This document shows positions 9,057 to 54,242 of a stretch of DNA of 64,000 nt, piece by piece. The DNA comes from Caldithrix abyssi DSM 13497 (GTDB taxonomy: Bacteria; Calditrichota; Calditrichia; Calditrichales; Calditrichaceae). The first letter of the stretch is position 1. Each line of letters starts with the position of its first letter. The notes under the pieces are model-generated. The model ran no database searches, had not been told where the DNA came from, and was given only the letters and a program-made list of their open reading frames with translations. The stretch covers positions 558,001 through 622,000 of the forward strand of contig NZ_CP018099.1 in assembly GCF_001886815.1 (NCBI RefSeq). Reading direction: 5' to 3'. A program made the translations under genes and the position numbers.

Positions 9057-9138
9057 GGAGTGGTTGATTAGTTGAATGGTAAAATGGTTGAATGGTAAAA
9101 TAGTTGAATGGTTGAATAGTTGAATGGTTAAATAGTTA
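9057..9138. repeat. Octamer microsatellite-like tract (GGTTGAAT/AGTTGAAT)
   Basis: Runs of GGTTGAAT and AGTTGAAT in degenerate tandem. The same motif, in either orientation, borders the intergenic repeats near 19.9, 24.8, 29.6 and 53.9 kb, so it is part of a recurrent module rather than local slippage alone. The preceding 8900-9056 holds no gene I can support. Confidence 0.75.
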
Positions 9139-40201: not shown

Positions 40202-40596
40202 GGTGTTTTCACCCTGATTAATGGTTTAAAGTTTTTTGCATTCTTTGTTTCAGCCTCTGTCTATCACTCGAAGGCACTCCTTAAACTGTCCTTTCGAGGA
40301 GTTCCCCTCCCACTGTCATTTCGAATCCCCGATTTATCGGGGTGAGAAATCTTTTCTGCCACGTTTGAGAAGATTTCTCCTCGCCCGCGGGCGGGCTCGT
40401 CGAAATGACAGGGGGTGTGCCCGCAGACGAGCTCGTCGAAATGACAGAGGGCGTGCCCGCGGTCGAATTCGTCGAAATGACAGGGGTGTGCCCGCGGTCG
40501 AATTCGTCGAAATGACATGGCACGTCCTGCAAAAAGAGCTCGTTGAAATGACAGTAAACATCGTGCAACGGTTATCGTTATTAAGACAGGGCAATT

Positions 40597-40893
40597 CTAC
40601 TCAAAATCCTCACTTAAATCTCTCCACTCAGGATTTTCTGTATTAACCAACTTATTTTTCTTTTCTCTTCTCCATTTTTTAATTTCCTTCTCGCGTTCAA
40701 TAGCAGCACGGACATCCTGAAAAGTCTCATAGTAAACCAGTTTGTTAATATTGTATTTTTTTGTAAAACCATCAATTAATTTATTTTTATGTTCATATAC
40801 CCGGCGCATAAGATTATTGGTGATTCCCACATACATTACCTTATTATTCCAGTTTGTCATGATGTAAACGAAATAATATTTAAAATCTTTCAT
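40597..40893 (-). CDS. GIY-YIG nuclease family protein, copy 1
   Basis: A 98-residue single-domain protein of the small GIY-YIG (UPF0213/YhbQ-like) type. Motifs: VYI (9-11) and YVG (21-23) for GIY-YIG, RRVYEHK with Arg30/Arg31, GFTKKYNI, LVYYE, and Glu68 in EREKEIKKWRR, the usual metal-binding Glu. The catalytic residues are all present. It is embedded between repeat runs inside the array, with about 100 bases of AT-rich sequence upstream. Compared with copy 2 it has Glu at two positions near the C-terminus (NTENPEW, LSEDFE). In context it may be the enzyme that maintains or spreads the repeats, but a house-keeping DNA role is not excluded. Confidence 0.9.
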   Translation of the reverse strand: MKDFKYYFVYIMTNWNNKVMYVGITNNLMRRVYEHKNKLIDGFTKKYNINKLVYYETFQDVRAAIEREKEIKKWRREKKNKLVNTENPEWRDLSEDFE

Positions 40894-41100
40894 TCTAAGA
40901 TTGTTTTTTTGTTTTACCTAATTAAATTAACACCACATTGTCGTACCTTTTCGCATCACTTTCTTTGGTGAATTTGAGCCACAATCCCTGTCCTTTCGAG
41001 GAGTTCCCCTCTCACTGTCATTTCGAATCCCCGATTTATCGGGGTGAGAAATCTTTTCTGACATGTTTGAGAAGATTTCTCCTCGCCCGCGGGCGGGCTC

Positions 41101-41524
41101 GTCGAAATGACAGGGGTGTGCCCGCGGTCGAATTAGTCGAAATGACATGGCACGTTCTGCATAAAGAGCTCGTTGAAATGACTGGGGCACGCCTGCGGGC
41201 GGGCTCGTCGAAATGACAGGGGTGTGCCCGCGGTCGAATTAGTCGAAATGACATGGCACGTTCTGCATAAAGAGCTCGTTGAAATGACTGGGGCACGCCT
41301 GCGGGCGGGCTCGTCGAAATGACAGGGGTGTGCCCGCGGTCGAATTAGTCGAAATGACATGGCACGTTCTGCATAAAGAGCTCGTTGAAATGACTGGGGC
41401 ACGCCTGCGGGCGGGCTCGTCGAAATGACAGGGGTGTGCCCGCGGTCGAATTAGTCGAAATGACATGGCACGTCCTGCAAAAAGAGCTCGTTGAAATGAC
41501 AGGGGCACGCCTGCGGGCGGGCTC
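41101..41524. repeat. 106-bp higher-order tandem repeat, four copies
   Basis: Copies start at 41101, 41207, 41313 and 41419. Each consists of three related monomers of 35, 36 and 35 bp that start GTCGAAATGAC, GTCGAAATGAC and GTTGAAATGAC. The first three copies look identical to me and the fourth has a few changes. Identity is higher between 106-bp units than between monomers, which indicates recent amplification of the trimer. Confidence 0.95.
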
Positions 41525-41675
41525 GTCGAAATGACAGAGGGCGTGCCCGTGGGCGAATTCGTCGAAATGACAGGGGTGTGCCCGTGGTCGAATTCGTCGA
41601 AATGACATGGCACGTCCTGCATGAATAGCTCGTTAAGCATCGTGCAACGGTTATCGTTATTAAGACAGGGCAATT

Positions 41676-41972
41676 CTACTCAAAATCCTTACTTAAATCT
41701 CTCCACTCAGGATTTTTTGTATTAACCAACTTATTTTTCTTTTCTCTTCTCCATTTTTTAATTTCCTTCTCGCGTTCAATAGCAGCACGGACATCCTGAA
41801 AAGTCTCATAGTAAACCAGTTTGTTAATATTGTATTTTTTTGTAAAACCATCAATTAATTTATTTTTATGTTCATATACCCGGCGCATAAGATTATTGGT
41901 GATTCCCACATACATTACCTTATTATTCCAGTTTGTCATGATGTAAACGAAATAATATTTAAAATCTTTCAT
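41676..41972 (-). CDS. GIY-YIG nuclease family protein, copy 2
   Basis: Same 98-residue protein as the gene at 40597, offset by 1079 bases. I count two base differences over the gene, both of which replace Glu by Lys (NTKNPEW, LSKDFE); the catalytic motifs VYI, YVG, Arg30/31 and Glu68 are unchanged. The upstream 100 bases are also duplicated. The pair arose by a recent tandem duplication of the gene with its flanking repeats, probably by recombination between header or monomer sequences. Confidence 0.9.
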   Translation of the reverse strand: MKDFKYYFVYIMTNWNNKVMYVGITNNLMRRVYEHKNKLIDGFTKKYNINKLVYYETFQDVRAAIEREKEIKKWRREKKNKLVNTKNPEWRDLSKDFE

Positions 41973-42419
41973 TCTAAGATTGTTTTTTTGTTTTACCTAA
42001 TTAAATTAACACCACATTGTCGTACCGTTTCGCATCACTTTCTTTGGTGATTTTGAGCCACAATCCCTGTCCTTTCGAGGAGCTCCCCTCTCACTGTCAT
42101 TTCGAATCCCCGATTTATCGGGGTGAGAAATCTTTTCTGACTAGTTTGAGAAGATTTCTCCTCGCCCGCGGGCGGGCTCGTCGAAATGACAGGGGCGTGC
42201 CCGCGGTCGAATTCGTCGAAATGACAGGGGTGTGCCTGTGGACGAATTCGTCGAAATGACATGGCACGTCCTGCATAAAGAGCTCGTTGAAATGACTGGG
42301 GCACGCCTGCGGGCGGGCTCGTCGAAATGACAGAGGGTGTGCCCGTGGTCGAATTCGTCGAAATGACAGGGCACGTTCTGCATAAAGAGCTCGCTGAAAT
42401 GACAGGGCAAACGATCATA

Positions 42420-49100: not shown

Positions 49101-50405
49101 TTAATCAGAAAAAGTTTCTTGCAAAAGATCCCACCAGTCATATTCATTAATATAAACCAGATCGAAGAGCATTAACCCGTCTGTTTTTTTCAAAACCATT
49201 TGCATGGCGCGTTTAAACTGCTGCGGATGATTTTTGTATTGTAATATGAACAGACTGCCGTACACGGTTGTGGCCTGCTGAATGACCTGATTGGTTATGT
49301 CGCAGGCGCCTTCCACACTATACCAGAATTGTTTACCATCTTTCATGGCCGCTTCCTGCCGCAAATCAATCCGCACATCGGGTAAATTAAGTTCGTCGAT
49401 GGTTACTTCAAAATAATAACAGCCGGACATGAAAAAATCCAGCAATTCGGCGTAACCGGTTACATGGTAGTCCGGATCGGCCCACCAGTAGGGGGGATGG
49501 TAATGTTGACTGGCCCAATTGACGCCCACTTCGTAATAGGTGGGGTACCAAGATCCGGCATAGTCGCCAAACGCCAGTTGAGGGTTAAGCGTTTTTACGG
49601 TGTCTCGCGCTTTTACAAAAAAATGGAAAATACACTTTGCGCGCCAGAAAAGCCACCGCTTGAATAATGGGCCTGGCGTTACTTCGGGCTCGGCGTCCGG
49701 CGTTTGTTTTTGCCAAGTAAAAATGTCTTCTGGCCAGTGTTTAACTTTTTTATTTAAGAACTTTTCAAACGCCGCCCTGGATTCCGGGCTAAAATCGGAA
49801 GCAATGCCGTCAAAGCGAGCGCGATCCAGAATGATGCCGGTCAGTTGCGGGTAGTTGCGCGCCACTTCGGCGATGATGGAAAGTTCGTAGCGTTGCACGT
49901 CTTCTCTGATGGGATTCACAAACAGGGATTGTTTGCTTTCCACTTCTGTAATGGGTTTTAAGCCCTTCGGCGTGTACAGAATGGTTTGCCAGTGGGGACG
50001 CGTTTCGTAAACAAGCCCCAGCCCGGCGGGGCGGCTACCCTCGGAAAAAATGTTGAGGGCGGCGTGTACTTTTAAACCGTACCGTTTGCCGAGCGTCAGG
50101 GCATGGGCCAGGTAGTCGTAATACGCCGGACGTTCCACGCCCTTCCATTTTAACAGACGGGGCGCAATTTTACTGGGGTACAACACATAGCCCGAATTGG
50201 GCTTGATGTCAATCACCAGGTCGGTAAAGCCGACAGACGCCGCCTTTTGGGCCATCGCCTCCATGGCGGAAGAGTCGCTTAGCTGCGCCCAGTTGGCGCT
50301 GGCGTCCACCCACAAAAAGAGGCGTTTGGTTTGCGGTTGGGTAAAACCGACATCATAAAAAAAGAGAATGAGGCATAATAAAAAAATGTTCATTTTAAAA
50401 TTCAT
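49101..50405 (-). CDS. GH10-like secreted glycoside hydrolase-family protein
   Basis: A 434-residue protein with a signal peptide (to about residue 22, ends VGFTQ) and one TIM-barrel-like domain resembling GHL10/alpha-amylase-like proteins of Bacteroidota: LFLWVDASANWAQL, FTDLVIDIKPNSGYVLYPS, GLKVHAALNIFSEG, FVNPIREDVQRYEL and LTGIILDRARFDG. No sorting domain is present, unlike its two operon partners, so it may stay in the periplasm. It is the first gene of a three-gene operon, 8 bases before the deacetylase-like gene. I see no strong SD. The repeat array at 50.4-51.8 kb lies upstream. Confidence 0.75.
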   Translation of the reverse strand: MNFKMNIFLLCLILFFYDVGFTQPQTKRLFLWVDASANWAQLSDSSAMEAMAQKAASVGFTDLVIDIKPNSGYVLYPSKIAPRLLKWKGVERPAYYDYLAHALTLGKRYGLKVHAALNIFSEGSRPAGLGLVYETRPHWQTILYTPKGLKPITEVESKQSLFVNPIREDVQRYELSIIAEVARNYPQLTGIILDRARFDGIASDFSPESRAAFEKFLNKKVKHWPEDIFTWQKQTPDAEPEVTPGPLFKRWLFWRAKCIFHFFVKARDTVKTLNPQLAFGDYAGSWYPTYYEVGVNWASQHYHPPYWWADPDYHVTGYAELLDFFMSGCYYFEVTIDELNLPDVRIDLRQEAAMKDGKQFWYSVEGACDITNQVIQQATTVYGSLFILQYKNHPQQFKRAMQMVLKKTDGLMLFDLVYINEYDWWDLLQETFSD

Positions 50406-50439
50406 GTATTTGTTTTCCGTTTTGAATGAAACAATGAAA

Positions 50440-51800
50440 ATTTCTCTTTCAGGGTTATTAATTTGTTTGGGAATTTGTTTTCTATAATCATTTCAATCCT
50501 TCGGATTTGGGTTATTTCGTCACCAATTTTATTTCGGATTTCATGTTCAGAGTTTCCGGCACATGCAATTAGTTTTTGGGATTTGCTTCATTTACAAAAT
50601 GGTGCTGTTCCGTTCATTTTAAACCATCTTTACATTTTGGCGCTAATTTAATCCCGAAAGATGAAACGGTTGCCACCAATATGACACCCTTTCAGGGTTA
50701 ATAATTTGGTTTGGGGTCTGGTTTTCTATAATCATTTCAATCCTTCGGATTTGGGTTTTTTCGTCACCAATTTTATTTCGGATTTCATGTTCAAAATTTA
50801 CGGCACATAAAATTGTTTTTTGTAATTCGCTTCATTTACAAAATGGTGCTGTTCCGTTCATTTTAAACCATCTTTACATTTTGGCACCATTCCAATCCCG
50901 AAGGGATGAAACGATTGCCACCATTATGGCACCCTTTCAGGGTTAATGATTTGATTGGGGCTTCACTTTCCTATAATCATTTCAATCCTTCGGATTTGGG
51001 TTTTTCCGTCACCAATTTTATTTCGGATTTTATGTTCAGAATTTCCGGCTCCTGGGGTTATTTTTTTGAATTCATTTCCTTTACAAAATTTTACTATTCG
51101 GACTATTTTAAAATCGCCCTTACATTTTGGCGCTAATTCAATCCCGAAGGGATGAAACGATTATAGCCAAAATGCCACAGGCCATTATTTAAACCTCGAA
51201 GAGGTGACATTATTATTTAATCCCTTCAGACAAAAATCACCTTTACGTATTGACGCCGTTTTAATCCCGAAAGATGAAACGATTGCCGCCAATATTTCAC
51301 CCTTTCAGGGTTATTAATTTGTTTTCTATAATCATTTCAATCCTTCGGATTTGGGTTTTCCCGTCACCAATTTTATTTCGTATTTCATGCCCAGAATTTC
51401 CGGCACATAAAATTGTTTTGTGATTCGCTTTATTTACAAAATGGTGCTGTTCCGTTCATTTTAAACCATCTTTACATTTTGGCGCTAATTCAATCCCGAA
51501 AGATGAAACGGTTGCCACCAATATGACACCCTTTCAGGGTTAATAATTTGGTTTGGGGTCTGGTTTTCTATAATCATTTCAATCCTTCGGATTTGGGTTA
51601 TTTCGTCACCAATTTTATTTCGTATTTCATGTTCAAAATTTCCGGCACATGCAATTGTTTTTTGGGATTCGCTTCATTTACAAAATGGTGCTGTTCCGTT
51701 CATTTTAAACCATCTTTACATTTTGGCGCCATTCCAATCCCGAAGGGATGAAACGATTATAGCCAAAATCCCGGCCCTCATTTAAACCTCGAAGAGGTGA
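50440..51800. repeat. Array of five ~245-bp hairpin-rich units beside a Y1 transposase gene
   Basis: Units recognised by CAATCCTTCGGATTTGGG at 50494, 50738, 50983, 51338 and 51580 (spacings 244, 245, 355, 242). Each unit holds three triloop hairpins: AATCC-TTC-GGATT, AATCCC-GAA-GGGAT (or decayed) and ACCCT-TTC-AGGGT. The third interval contains an extra 110 bases with ACCTCGAAGAGGT, a palindrome that recurs at 51784-51796 right beside the transposase gene. No coding frame is conserved across units. Confidence 0.9.
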
Positions 51801-51802
51801 CA

Positions 51803-52264
51803 TTATTCAATCCATTCAAACAAATATTCATCCTTAAATTCAATTTCAAACTTTTTTAAAAAATTATAATATTCCTCCCTGAACGTTTTTTTCTTATGAT
51901 GCGCTTCCTGATTTAAAATATACTTATAAACCGTATCCAATTGAGAATGCGCGTAAGAAAAAGCCCCATATCCAGCCTGCCATTCAAACTTACCTTGCAC
52001 AAATCCTCTGTCGTTAATAAAATTAGAAGAATTATTTTTTATATCTCTAACCAAACCCGACAGGGCCATAAACGGTTTAAGACCAATAAAACAATGAACA
52101 TGATCTGATACGCCATTAATAATGATCGATTTATGGCCTTTATTCTTAATAATTCCCGTCATGTATTTAAATACTTCATTGCGCCAGGATTTTTGTAAAA
52201 GATTTTGCCTCCCCTTTACGGCAAAGATCACCTGGATATAAATTTTTGAATAAGTACCTGCCAT
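51803..52264 (-). CDS. IS200/IS605-like Y1 (HUH) transposase
   Basis: A 153-residue protein starting MAGTYSKIYIQVIFAVKGR, typical of Bacteroidota Y1 transposases. The HUH motif is His55-Val-His57 in SDHVHCFIGL, and the candidate nucleophile is Tyr115 in YKYILNQEAHH. The fold and length fit single-strand-specific TnpA enzymes that recognise hairpins. No TnpB is present. It lies at one end of the hairpin-unit array and only 38 bases from the next gene, so it is either a single-copy domesticated (RAYT-like) enzyme or a minimal IS. All catalytic residues are intact. Confidence 0.9.
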   Translation of the reverse strand: MAGTYSKIYIQVIFAVKGRQNLLQKSWRNEVFKYMTGIIKNKGHKSIIINGVSDHVHCFIGLKPFMALSGLVRDIKNNSSNFINDRGFVQGKFEWQAGYGAFSYAHSQLDTVYKYILNQEAHHKKKTFREEYYNFLKKFEIEFKDEYLFEWIE

Positions 52265-52302
52265 AATGATAACCCTTAATTCAATGAACAGCAGGGAATC
52301 AC

Positions 52303-53688
52303 TTATTTAATCAATAGCATTTTTCTCGTTTGAACCACGTTCTCGCCGCGTAATTGGTAAAAATAAATTCCCGAAGCCCAATGATTGCCATTAATCTTAA
52401 TCTGATGTTTACCGGCGACCTGTTTACCAACATTAATTTCTTTAACCAATTGACCGGAATTACTAAAAATCAAAAATTGAACATTTTGCGTTTTACTTAA
52501 CTGATATTCAATGGTTGTCTGGGCATTAAACGGATTGGGGAAATTCCCTAAGAGCGCTGTTGTCTTAGGAAGCAGCGAGCCTGGCTCATCAAGCGCCTGC
52601 AATGGGCCGTAGGAAAAGACAAAGGCGCATTTAGCTTCCTGATCGATGACATAGGCAAAATTTTCGTCCGGGCTGAAGGCAATGTCCGAAGGGGTTAAGA
52701 AGGGAGCGCCCTGCGGATCGGGATTGACCGCGCTGTTAGCTGATGGCAACTCATCCAGTTCAATGGCGAAATTTCCGCTGATCATGAACGATTTTACCCA
52801 GCGCCGCGTGGTATCGGTGCCGCAGGCCCACAGATTCCCCTGGCTGTCGCAGGCAATGCCGTAAGGCGTCCAGGAAAGCCAGCCAAGGTAGGAAGACACA
52901 TCGCTTACGCGCTGGCCCACGTAATCTTTAGGCGAGGTTTGCGTTCCGCCGGTCCACACGGCAATACCGCCTGTGGAGCTCAGAGTATCGCTGTTGCGGC
53001 TGGAAAAGAAGGGCGTGTTGGGATCGCTGTAATCGGCGCCGGGAATGGTGGCCACATCGCGAATGATGGAAAATCCTGTGCCGTCATGTCCGCCCGGTTC
53101 GATGGGATGCAGGTCCAGGGGCTGAATGGGCACCCAGGTGCCCCGGGCCGAGGCGGTGTCCGTAAAATTGTACACGCGGATGGATGTGTGGTAGGAAAGC
53201 CCGGCGTACACAAATTTGTCCTTGTTGGCAGAAAGACCGAGCACCCACGTACCGTAACCGCCGGCGGTGTATTCCTTACGCTGAGCGGGATCGCCATCGG
53301 GATATTCGTACATGATGGAAAGCGAAGGCATGGGCGTACCCGGCTTACGACACACAACCAGAACGGTGTCGTCAATGGTGGTAATGCCGCGCGCCGATTC
53401 CACGTCCAGATTGGCGCTGTAGTCGTCGATCAGCGTAAAGACCGAGTCGCCTGGCGCTGCCATCCACAGGGCATTCATCCCACGGGCATCCACTGCGCTG
53501 GTGGTAATGACCCAAAGGCTGCCCTTGTTATCCGTGGCGCAGAGAAAGGGATAGGTGACGCTGTCGGGCGTGGGAAATTTAATGGTCATCTCTTCCTGAA
53601 AAAGCCAGGAATCCTGGGCGCTGAGCGTCGTCGGCAGGACGACAAAAAGCAATAATGCGACGGCGAAAAAAGCGACAAGTTTTTTCAT
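52303..53688 (-). CDS. Secreted beta-propeller-like protein with T9SS sorting domain
   Basis: A 461-residue protein with signal peptide (1-24, ends LSAQ). The body has repeated propeller-like segments (KGSLWVITTS, GNLWACGTDTTRRWV, SPDENFAYVIDQE), probably an NHL/SMP-30-like fold; I cannot assign an activity. The end is a type A sorting domain (NFPNPFNAQT to KMLLIK). GGGGTGAG lies 6 bases before the ATG. It is monocistronic as far as seen, with a TTAAGTTAACTTAA palindrome upstream. Confidence 0.75.
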   Translation of the reverse strand: MKKLVAFFAVALLLFVVLPTTLSAQDSWLFQEEMTIKFPTPDSVTYPFLCATDNKGSLWVITTSAVDARGMNALWMAAPGDSVFTLIDDYSANLDVESARGITTIDDTVLVVCRKPGTPMPSLSIMYEYPDGDPAQRKEYTAGGYGTWVLGLSANKDKFVYAGLSYHTSIRVYNFTDTASARGTWVPIQPLDLHPIEPGGHDGTGFSIIRDVATIPGADYSDPNTPFFSSRNSDTLSSTGGIAVWTGGTQTSPKDYVGQRVSDVSSYLGWLSWTPYGIACDSQGNLWACGTDTTRRWVKSFMISGNFAIELDELPSANSAVNPDPQGAPFLTPSDIAFSPDENFAYVIDQEAKCAFVFSYGPLQALDEPGSLLPKTTALLGNFPNPFNAQTTIEYQLSKTQNVQFLIFSNSGQLVKEINVGKQVAGKHQIKINGNHWASGIYFYQLRGENVVQTRKMLLIK

Positions 53689-53835: not shown

Positions 53836-54160
53836 TACTTCCTTCAAAACATCTGTATCGCCATGGCGGGATTGGTTTAATGGTTGATTAGTTGAATAGT
53901 TGATTGGTTGAATGGTTAGCCTGTCATTTCAAACCTGTTTCTGCAAATGTGGTGAATTCCTGCCACCGTTTATGTCGGGGCGAAGGATTTCCAAGAACAA
54001 TTCAGCGATGGTAAGCATTCATCTTTAGTCATATCAAAAAAGCGCTCTGGATAAAGTAGGGTTGGAAATCCTTCGCCCTTACAAGTGCGTTCATTCCTGA
54101 TCTTTTGTCTGGGAGTGAGGATCGAGCGAGCAATGGTAATTTAATTTAAAATATTCATTG
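53836..54160 (+). repeat. Composite intergenic element (modules D, octamers, A), copy 3
   Basis: Module D in reverse orientation at about 53836-53875 (ATACTTCCTTC, ATGGCGGGATTGG), octamer tract 53877-53920, and module A at 53930-54160 with inverted ends at 53973-53992 and 54064-54083 (one mismatch). Same orientation of A as at 9.2 kb. The 71-codon frame seen in the other copies is broken here. Confidence 0.85.
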
Positions 54161-54242
54161 CGCACGTTGCGGTTTTTTAAGAGTTGCGGCTGTGCTGCCC
54201 TGGAATAAACGCAGCGGTTTAAAGGATCGGCAACCACTTCTT

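Follow-up and report, generated by a model that had tools for sequence, protein, structure and literature searches.

In RAYT/TnpA_REP REPtrons (class 2), the transposase gene is flanked by inverted short hairpins of a single family. These REPs, which bear a GTRG 5' foot, are extragenic, dispersed and multi-copy, form inverted pairs such as REPINs and BIMEs, and are specific to the transposase lineage. The IS200/IS605 insertion sequences, such as IS608 and ISDra2, are built around an HUH and tyrosine catalytic fold and possess two different subterminal ends. TnpA_Y1 subclass 1.2 is listed without REP and generally without terminal hairpins (Quentin et al. 2018; PMC6006769); its members are proteins of ~148-150 aa with DH[VI]H, WQ and Y---Q--HH motifs, occur at low copy number with low identity between copies, and are rich in Bacteroidetes. 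The RNAMotif search of that study accepted only hairpins with GTRG (GTAG or GTGG) at the foot and 7-20 nt in the basal stem. Finally, the CGTC palindromic repeats (PMC3733652), with loops of 4-5 and a CGTC tag, have been described without a dedicated transposase.

Here, we analyse a locus of Caldithrix abyssi DSM 13497 in which a Y1 transposase gene lies beside an array of short hairpins. The window is the whole 64,000-nucleotide stretch of the chromosome that was analysed (NZ_CP018099.1, 558,001 to 622,000). The protein resembles subclass 1.2 in its motifs (DHVH, WQ and YILNQEAHH), its size (153 aa), its low copy number and low inter-copy identity, and in the abundance of Bacteroidetes among its relatives. 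Unlike published subclass 1.2 members, its close relatives carry a conserved hairpin element. As in REPtrons, the gene is flanked in those relatives by inverted short hairpins of one family (in the window, on one side only), which are extragenic, dispersed, multi-copy, found as inverted pairs and specific to the transposase lineage; unlike class 2 enzymes, the protein lacks Y---NP (YILNQ here), and unlike REPs the element has no GTRG foot but a 5-bp stem, a triloop and a long conserved 3' tail. An element of this form was therefore excluded by construction from the RNAMotif search. The locus differs from IS200/IS605 in its single copy, the lack of tnpB and the inverted flanking elements, and by analogy with IS608 and ISDra2, whose catalytic fold it shares, hairpin-based DNA recognition would be expected. 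Its likeness to CGTC repeats, which are also small tagged palindromes with Bacteroidetes among their hosts, is drawn at the level of description; a triloop and an ATKTC-like foot take the place of the loops of 4-5 and the CGTC tag.

The Y1 gene and the adjoining hairpin array

The sequence-only reading had described an array of ~245-bp multi-hairpin units abutting an intact HUH transposase gene, and both parts of that description hold. The gene is intact, with a score of 83.7 bits against Pfam Y1_Tnp, and 4 nt separate its end from the nearest hairpin. Its product also matches NF033573 (IS200/IS605) above the cut-off, its profile matches the structures of the ISDra2 and IS608 transposases by HMM, and an AlphaFold model (pLDDT 94) retrieves ISDra2, IS608 and the RAYT-REP complex 4er8 with Foldseek. 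H55, W95, Q96, Y115 (the tyrosine of YILNQEAHH), Q119 and H123 are invariant in 40 aligned sequences, and a C-terminal region, TFREEYxxFLKKFEI, is conserved. By its motifs, size and low copy number the protein is assigned to a TnpA_Y1 subclass 1.2-like group. A search for further copies, proposed in the earlier reading against the possibility of many identical IS copies, found no near-identical copy in the genome; the other two Y1 genes (778 kb and 4862 kb) are 41% and 33% identical. No tnpB-like ORF adjoins the gene. The features of the locus are as follows.

50440..51800, no strand: hairpin array, five ~245-bp units, AATCC spacing 244/245/355/242
51803..52264, minus: Y1/HUH transposase gene, 153 aa (Pfam/NCBIfam, profile-to-structure HMM, AlphaFold and Foldseek, motifs)
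51786..51798, plus: gene-proximal hairpin ACCTCGAAGAGGT, tail GACATTATT directed at the gene
51737..51749, plus: second gene-proximal hairpin ATCCCGAAGGGAT, full tail GAAACGATTATAG, 49 nt from the first
51193..51205, plus: internal copy of ACCTCGAAGAGGT
51141..51153, plus: internal hairpin ATCCCGAAGGGAT, full tail; with the 51193 copy it repeats the gene-proximal pair
50895..50907, plus: hairpin ATCCCGAAGGGAT, tail decayed
50495..50507, minus: hairpin AATCCGAAGGATT, tail GAAATGATTATAG (full score)
50739..50751, minus: hairpin AATCCGAAGGATT, full tail
50984..50996, minus: hairpin AATCCGAAGGATT, full tail
51339..51351, minus: hairpin AATCCGAAGGATT, full tail
51581..51593, minus: hairpin AATCCGAAGGATT, full tail
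50686..50698, minus: hairpin ACCCTGAAAGGGT, partial tail
50931..50943, minus: hairpin ACCCTGAAAGGGT, partial tail
51299..51311, minus: hairpin ACCCTGAAAGGGT, partial tail
51528..51540, minus: hairpin ACCCTGAAAGGGT, partial tail
50406..52302, no strand: approximate segment with Y1 gene and array, not present at the corresponding intergenic site of two congeners

Both TRF and direct-repeat analysis recover five units of ~244-245 bp between 50440 and 51800, and the AATCC hairpins, starting at 50495, 50739, 50984, 51339 and 51581, are spaced by 244, 245, 355 and 242. The array contains 14 intact GC-containing 13-mer triloop hairpins (five AATCC, four ACCCT, three ATCCC and two ACCTC), with elements in both orientations. 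Three triloop hairpins per unit, as first proposed, is the ideal pattern; several ATCCC hairpins have decayed (ATCCCGAAAGAT), and the third unit carries an insertion of ~110 bp with an additional ACCTC hairpin. The palindrome ACCTCGAAGAGGT does occur both beside the gene and inside the array, at 51786 and 51193, and these are its only two occurrences in the 4.98-Mb genome. The gene-proximal ATCCC and ACCTC pair is duplicated within the array at 51141-51205. A genome-wide search for the 245-bp unit yielded no locus other than the array, and an Rfam search of the array part of the window returned nothing at the gathering threshold. The whole 245-nt unit was considered as a folded substrate and rejected, its stability as DNA being ordinary (z = -0.64); the signal in the array is that of individual short hairpins and their tails, not of a whole-unit fold.

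Synteny in relatives, also suggested by the earlier reading, revealed an empty site. In two congeneric sister species the orthologues of 49101-50405 and 52303-53688 are adjacent across a short intergenic gap, and neither the Y1 gene nor the hairpin array is present at the corresponding site; one of the two has its Y1 orthologue, 77% identical, on a different contig. The gene and array segment was thus gained here or lost in both of the others. A second nuclease-repeat pairing, claimed to lie 8 kb away, was not found, since 40.3-42.4 kb holds a 35-bp repeat array with no plausible nuclease gene. These 35-bp repeats (40383-42407; core TCGTCGAAATGACA) lie between two genes and show higher-order duplications of 106 bp and ~1.08 kb.

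A hairpin-and-tail element that accompanies the gene in relatives

Each element is ~28 nt long and consists of a hairpin with a 5-bp stem and a 3-nt loop, mostly GNA, followed by a conserved 3' tail: A[RYCCC GWA GGGRY]GAMATNATTRTAG. The aligned hairpins of relatives give the consensus A[RYCCC GWA GGGRY]GAMATNATTRTAGAA; in the position profile a lone A stands at the 5' foot and TTRTAG lies 3' of the hairpin. Read on the opposite strand, the element has CTAYAATNATKTC at the 5' foot of the hairpin, a foot that is ATKTC-like. Elements recur at intervals of ~50 nt (47-54 nt in tandem), and in the flanks of Calditrichota relatives the hairpins are likewise paired ~50 nt apart with a linker motif in common. 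Because hairpin orientation was picked by the match to the tail, tail scores were controlled with random positions and far hairpins: scores of at least 9 were found for 39% of the hairpins near the gene, 6% of those far from it and 0.5% of random flank positions. Stem covariation was kept out of the evidence, as the hairpins had been selected for perfect pairing. The ~28-nt hairpin and tail, rather than the 245-bp unit, is the biologically meaningful unit.

We compared the nearest 80 of at least 583 related loci, which is not a random sample; most are from Bacteroidota, and the others include Ignavibacteria, Neomarinimicrobiota and two Anaerolineales MAGs. In 77 of these 80 close relatives the element is found no farther than 400 bp from the Y1 gene; of the control stretches, taken at 1.6-2 kb, 4 of 59 contain it. 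Triloop 5-bp hairpins reach 9.8 per kb downstream and 7.4 per kb upstream within 200 bp of the gene, whereas their density is 0.7-0.85 per kb between 1 and 4 kb away, with 0.3-0.7 per kb in shuffles, an enrichment of ~10-14-fold over the 1-4 kb region and ~20-fold over shuffles; stems longer than 5 bp are only mildly enriched near the gene. The innermost elements mostly point inward (40/49 forward upstream, 56/66 reverse downstream), and the hairpins closest to the gene are often found 7-35 nt ahead of the start codon or 3-24 nt beyond the stop codon.

Element type follows the protein. Distances between element profiles and between proteins are correlated (Mantel r = 0.595, n = 74, 0 of 2000 permutations), and in one Flavobacterium genome, that of Flavobacterium hungaricum, two Y1 genes have different elements, each closest to those of the nearest Y1 in other species. 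Other Y1 groups in Calditrichota have flanking palindromes of their own, many of them 20 nt long with a stem of 8 bp and a tetraloop, at 6-7 per kb within 300 bp versus ~1 per kb farther away; these lack the tail, which in our sample is therefore specific to the clade of the window's gene. On two contigs of Anaerolineales (Chloroflexota) MAGs, the Y1 protein is 72-73% identical and is accompanied by the same elements, which reflects either horizontal transfer or misbinning.

Dispersed copies of the element

Genome copies were located with a 33-position model (R1), whose E-values are rough and whose copy numbers are lower bounds. In the C. abyssi genome it found at least 35 copies, 11 in the array and at least 24 outside it. 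Of the latter, nine stand in tandem at 754.8-755.2 kb, others cluster at 1218-1228 kb, and the rest are single sites. All the dispersed sites that were examined proved intergenic but for one in a doubtful antisense ORF. At 754.8-755.2 kb the nine hairpin-and-tail copies have a 53-54-nt period, and no Y1 gene is adjacent. An exact-pattern scan of Calditrichota found few copies beyond this genome, because stems and tails vary between genomes. All 26 Bacteroidota genomes tested carry the element, the richest with at least 78 copies. The sequence-only reading had held that its proposal would suffer if units were common far from any Y1 gene: the ~28-nt element is found in such places, as is expected of a REP family, and the 245-bp unit is not.

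The presence of copies correlates with that of the gene. Among 121 Flavobacterium genomes, which are phylogenetically non-independent, at least one copy was found in 36 of 58 with the gene and 6 of 63 without it (p = 8e-10), and at least six copies in 24 of 58 versus 0 of 63; the six genomes that have copies although no gene was detected in them carry 1-5 each. Of 100 sites in four Flavobacterium genomes assembled as single contigs, 97 are over 3 kb away from a related Y1 gene, and inward-facing '+-' pairs are mostly 108-138 bp apart and REPIN-like. A replication-strand bias is not claimed: 11 of 12 sites in the C. abyssi genome share one polarity relative to the likely ori and ter (p = 0.006, post hoc), and the four Flavobacterium genomes are inconsistent.

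Half of the dispersed copies in C. abyssi (12 of 24) have a second palindrome, AACCGTTGAAACGGTT, no more than 100 bp away, against an expectation of 0.16% per site, so that which enzyme moved them is uncertain. This palindrome is similar to a hairpin beside another Y1 gene, and hairpin-tail-palindrome mosaics occur at 929, 1218-1228, 1700, 2352, 3454, 3890 and 3962 kb. The genome paper of C. abyssi (PMC5317091) reported this strand-biased palindrome in an 18-nt form, aAACCGTTgaAACGGTTt, and named no transposase for it; since a close variant, AAACCGTTTAAACGGTTT, stands 72 nt before the third Y1 gene (4862 kb), that gene may encode its cognate transposase. A ~300-bp intergenic stretch of the window (~53880-54180; GATTGGTTGAATGGTT repeats, then GGGGCGAAGGATTTCC...) recurs in near-identical form upstream of the third Y1 gene, and 8/16-bp repeats like those of this stretch are also present at 9061, 19889 and 29592.

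A probable atypical REPtron and its alternatives

We consider it likely that the locus is an atypical REPtron, in which a single-copy, subclass 1.2-like TnpA_Y1 gene is joined by REP-like elements that its enzyme probably recognises. The comparative sequence evidence gives good support to a cognate relation between the transposase and the hairpins near its gene. The original suggestion that they may be substrates or products of the enzyme is retained as a cognate relation, with the ~28-nt element in place of the 245-bp unit.

The elements might instead be insertion targets, a Y1 element having entered pre-existing repeat arrays as IS elements enter REPs. Elements do occur away from Y1 genes, and ISPpu9 of Pseudomonas is described as inserted in REPs (PMC8450116). 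This explanation is nevertheless improbable, because the congeneric empty sites contain no hairpin array, no gene-less Flavobacterium genome (0/63) has six or more copies, and even inside a single genome the element type goes with the Y1 lineage. A regulatory function, with the hairpins acting as attenuators or mRNA-stability structures that control transposase expression, would fit the placement of the innermost hairpins close to start and stop codons, and regulation of the Y1 gene may be a secondary role. As a full account it seems a little less probable again, given the many intergenic copies far from any related Y1 gene, the tandem arrays of multiple copies and the conservation of a tail outside the hairpin.

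We give the lowest probability, a very small one, to an ordinary IS200/IS605 insertion sequence beside an unrelated satellite array. The NF033573 match and the empty site, which suggests gain of a segment, are what such an element would produce, but the gene lacks near-identical copies and a neighbouring tnpB-like ORF, and the same hairpin class stands beside the gene in most relatives. A simple reading of the hairpins as IS605-style left and right ends was dropped because the conserved tails are on the gene side of the hairpins and not on their outer side.

For the atypical REPtron, we infer from the comparative evidence how binding, strand use, cleavage and mobilisation would proceed. On single-stranded DNA, a dimeric HUH/Tyr enzyme would bind the folded hairpin, the conserved bases adjoining it would serve as guide and cleavage signal, and the tyrosine would cut near TTRTAG. 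The enzyme would then move or multiply the elements, and copies would spread to intergenic DNA; in Flavobacterium these are often inverted pairs separated by ~110-140 bp. In C. abyssi the gene-side copies would have been further amplified in tandem to give the 245-bp units, presumably by slippage or recombination.

Since the element brackets the gene in most relatives and is dispersed in genomes, a group reported as REP-less appears to have a REP-like family. With less assurance than for the locus itself, although we think it rather better supported than not, we suggest that an unrecognised REP-like superfamily, built as hairpin plus 3' tail and not as GTRG followed by a hairpin, serves as substrate for TnpA_Y1 subclass 1.2 in Bacteroidota and neighbouring phyla, and that REP/RAYT systems with a guide logic of their own arose or persisted outside class 2. 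We found no later work on subclass 1.2 repeats in the literature searched, within which the element is, as far as we can tell, previously undescribed.

Subclass 1.2 transposases have been published without a known DNA partner, and the ~28-nt element with its conserved tail is a candidate substrate. With at least 583 related loci, cognate pairs within one genome and a correlation with gene presence, recognition and cleavage are directly testable by existing single-stranded DNA cleavage assays. These observations suggest that searches based on the GTRG rule overlook such systems, and that many of the dispersed short palindromes of Flavobacterium and its relatives are members of a transposase-linked family.
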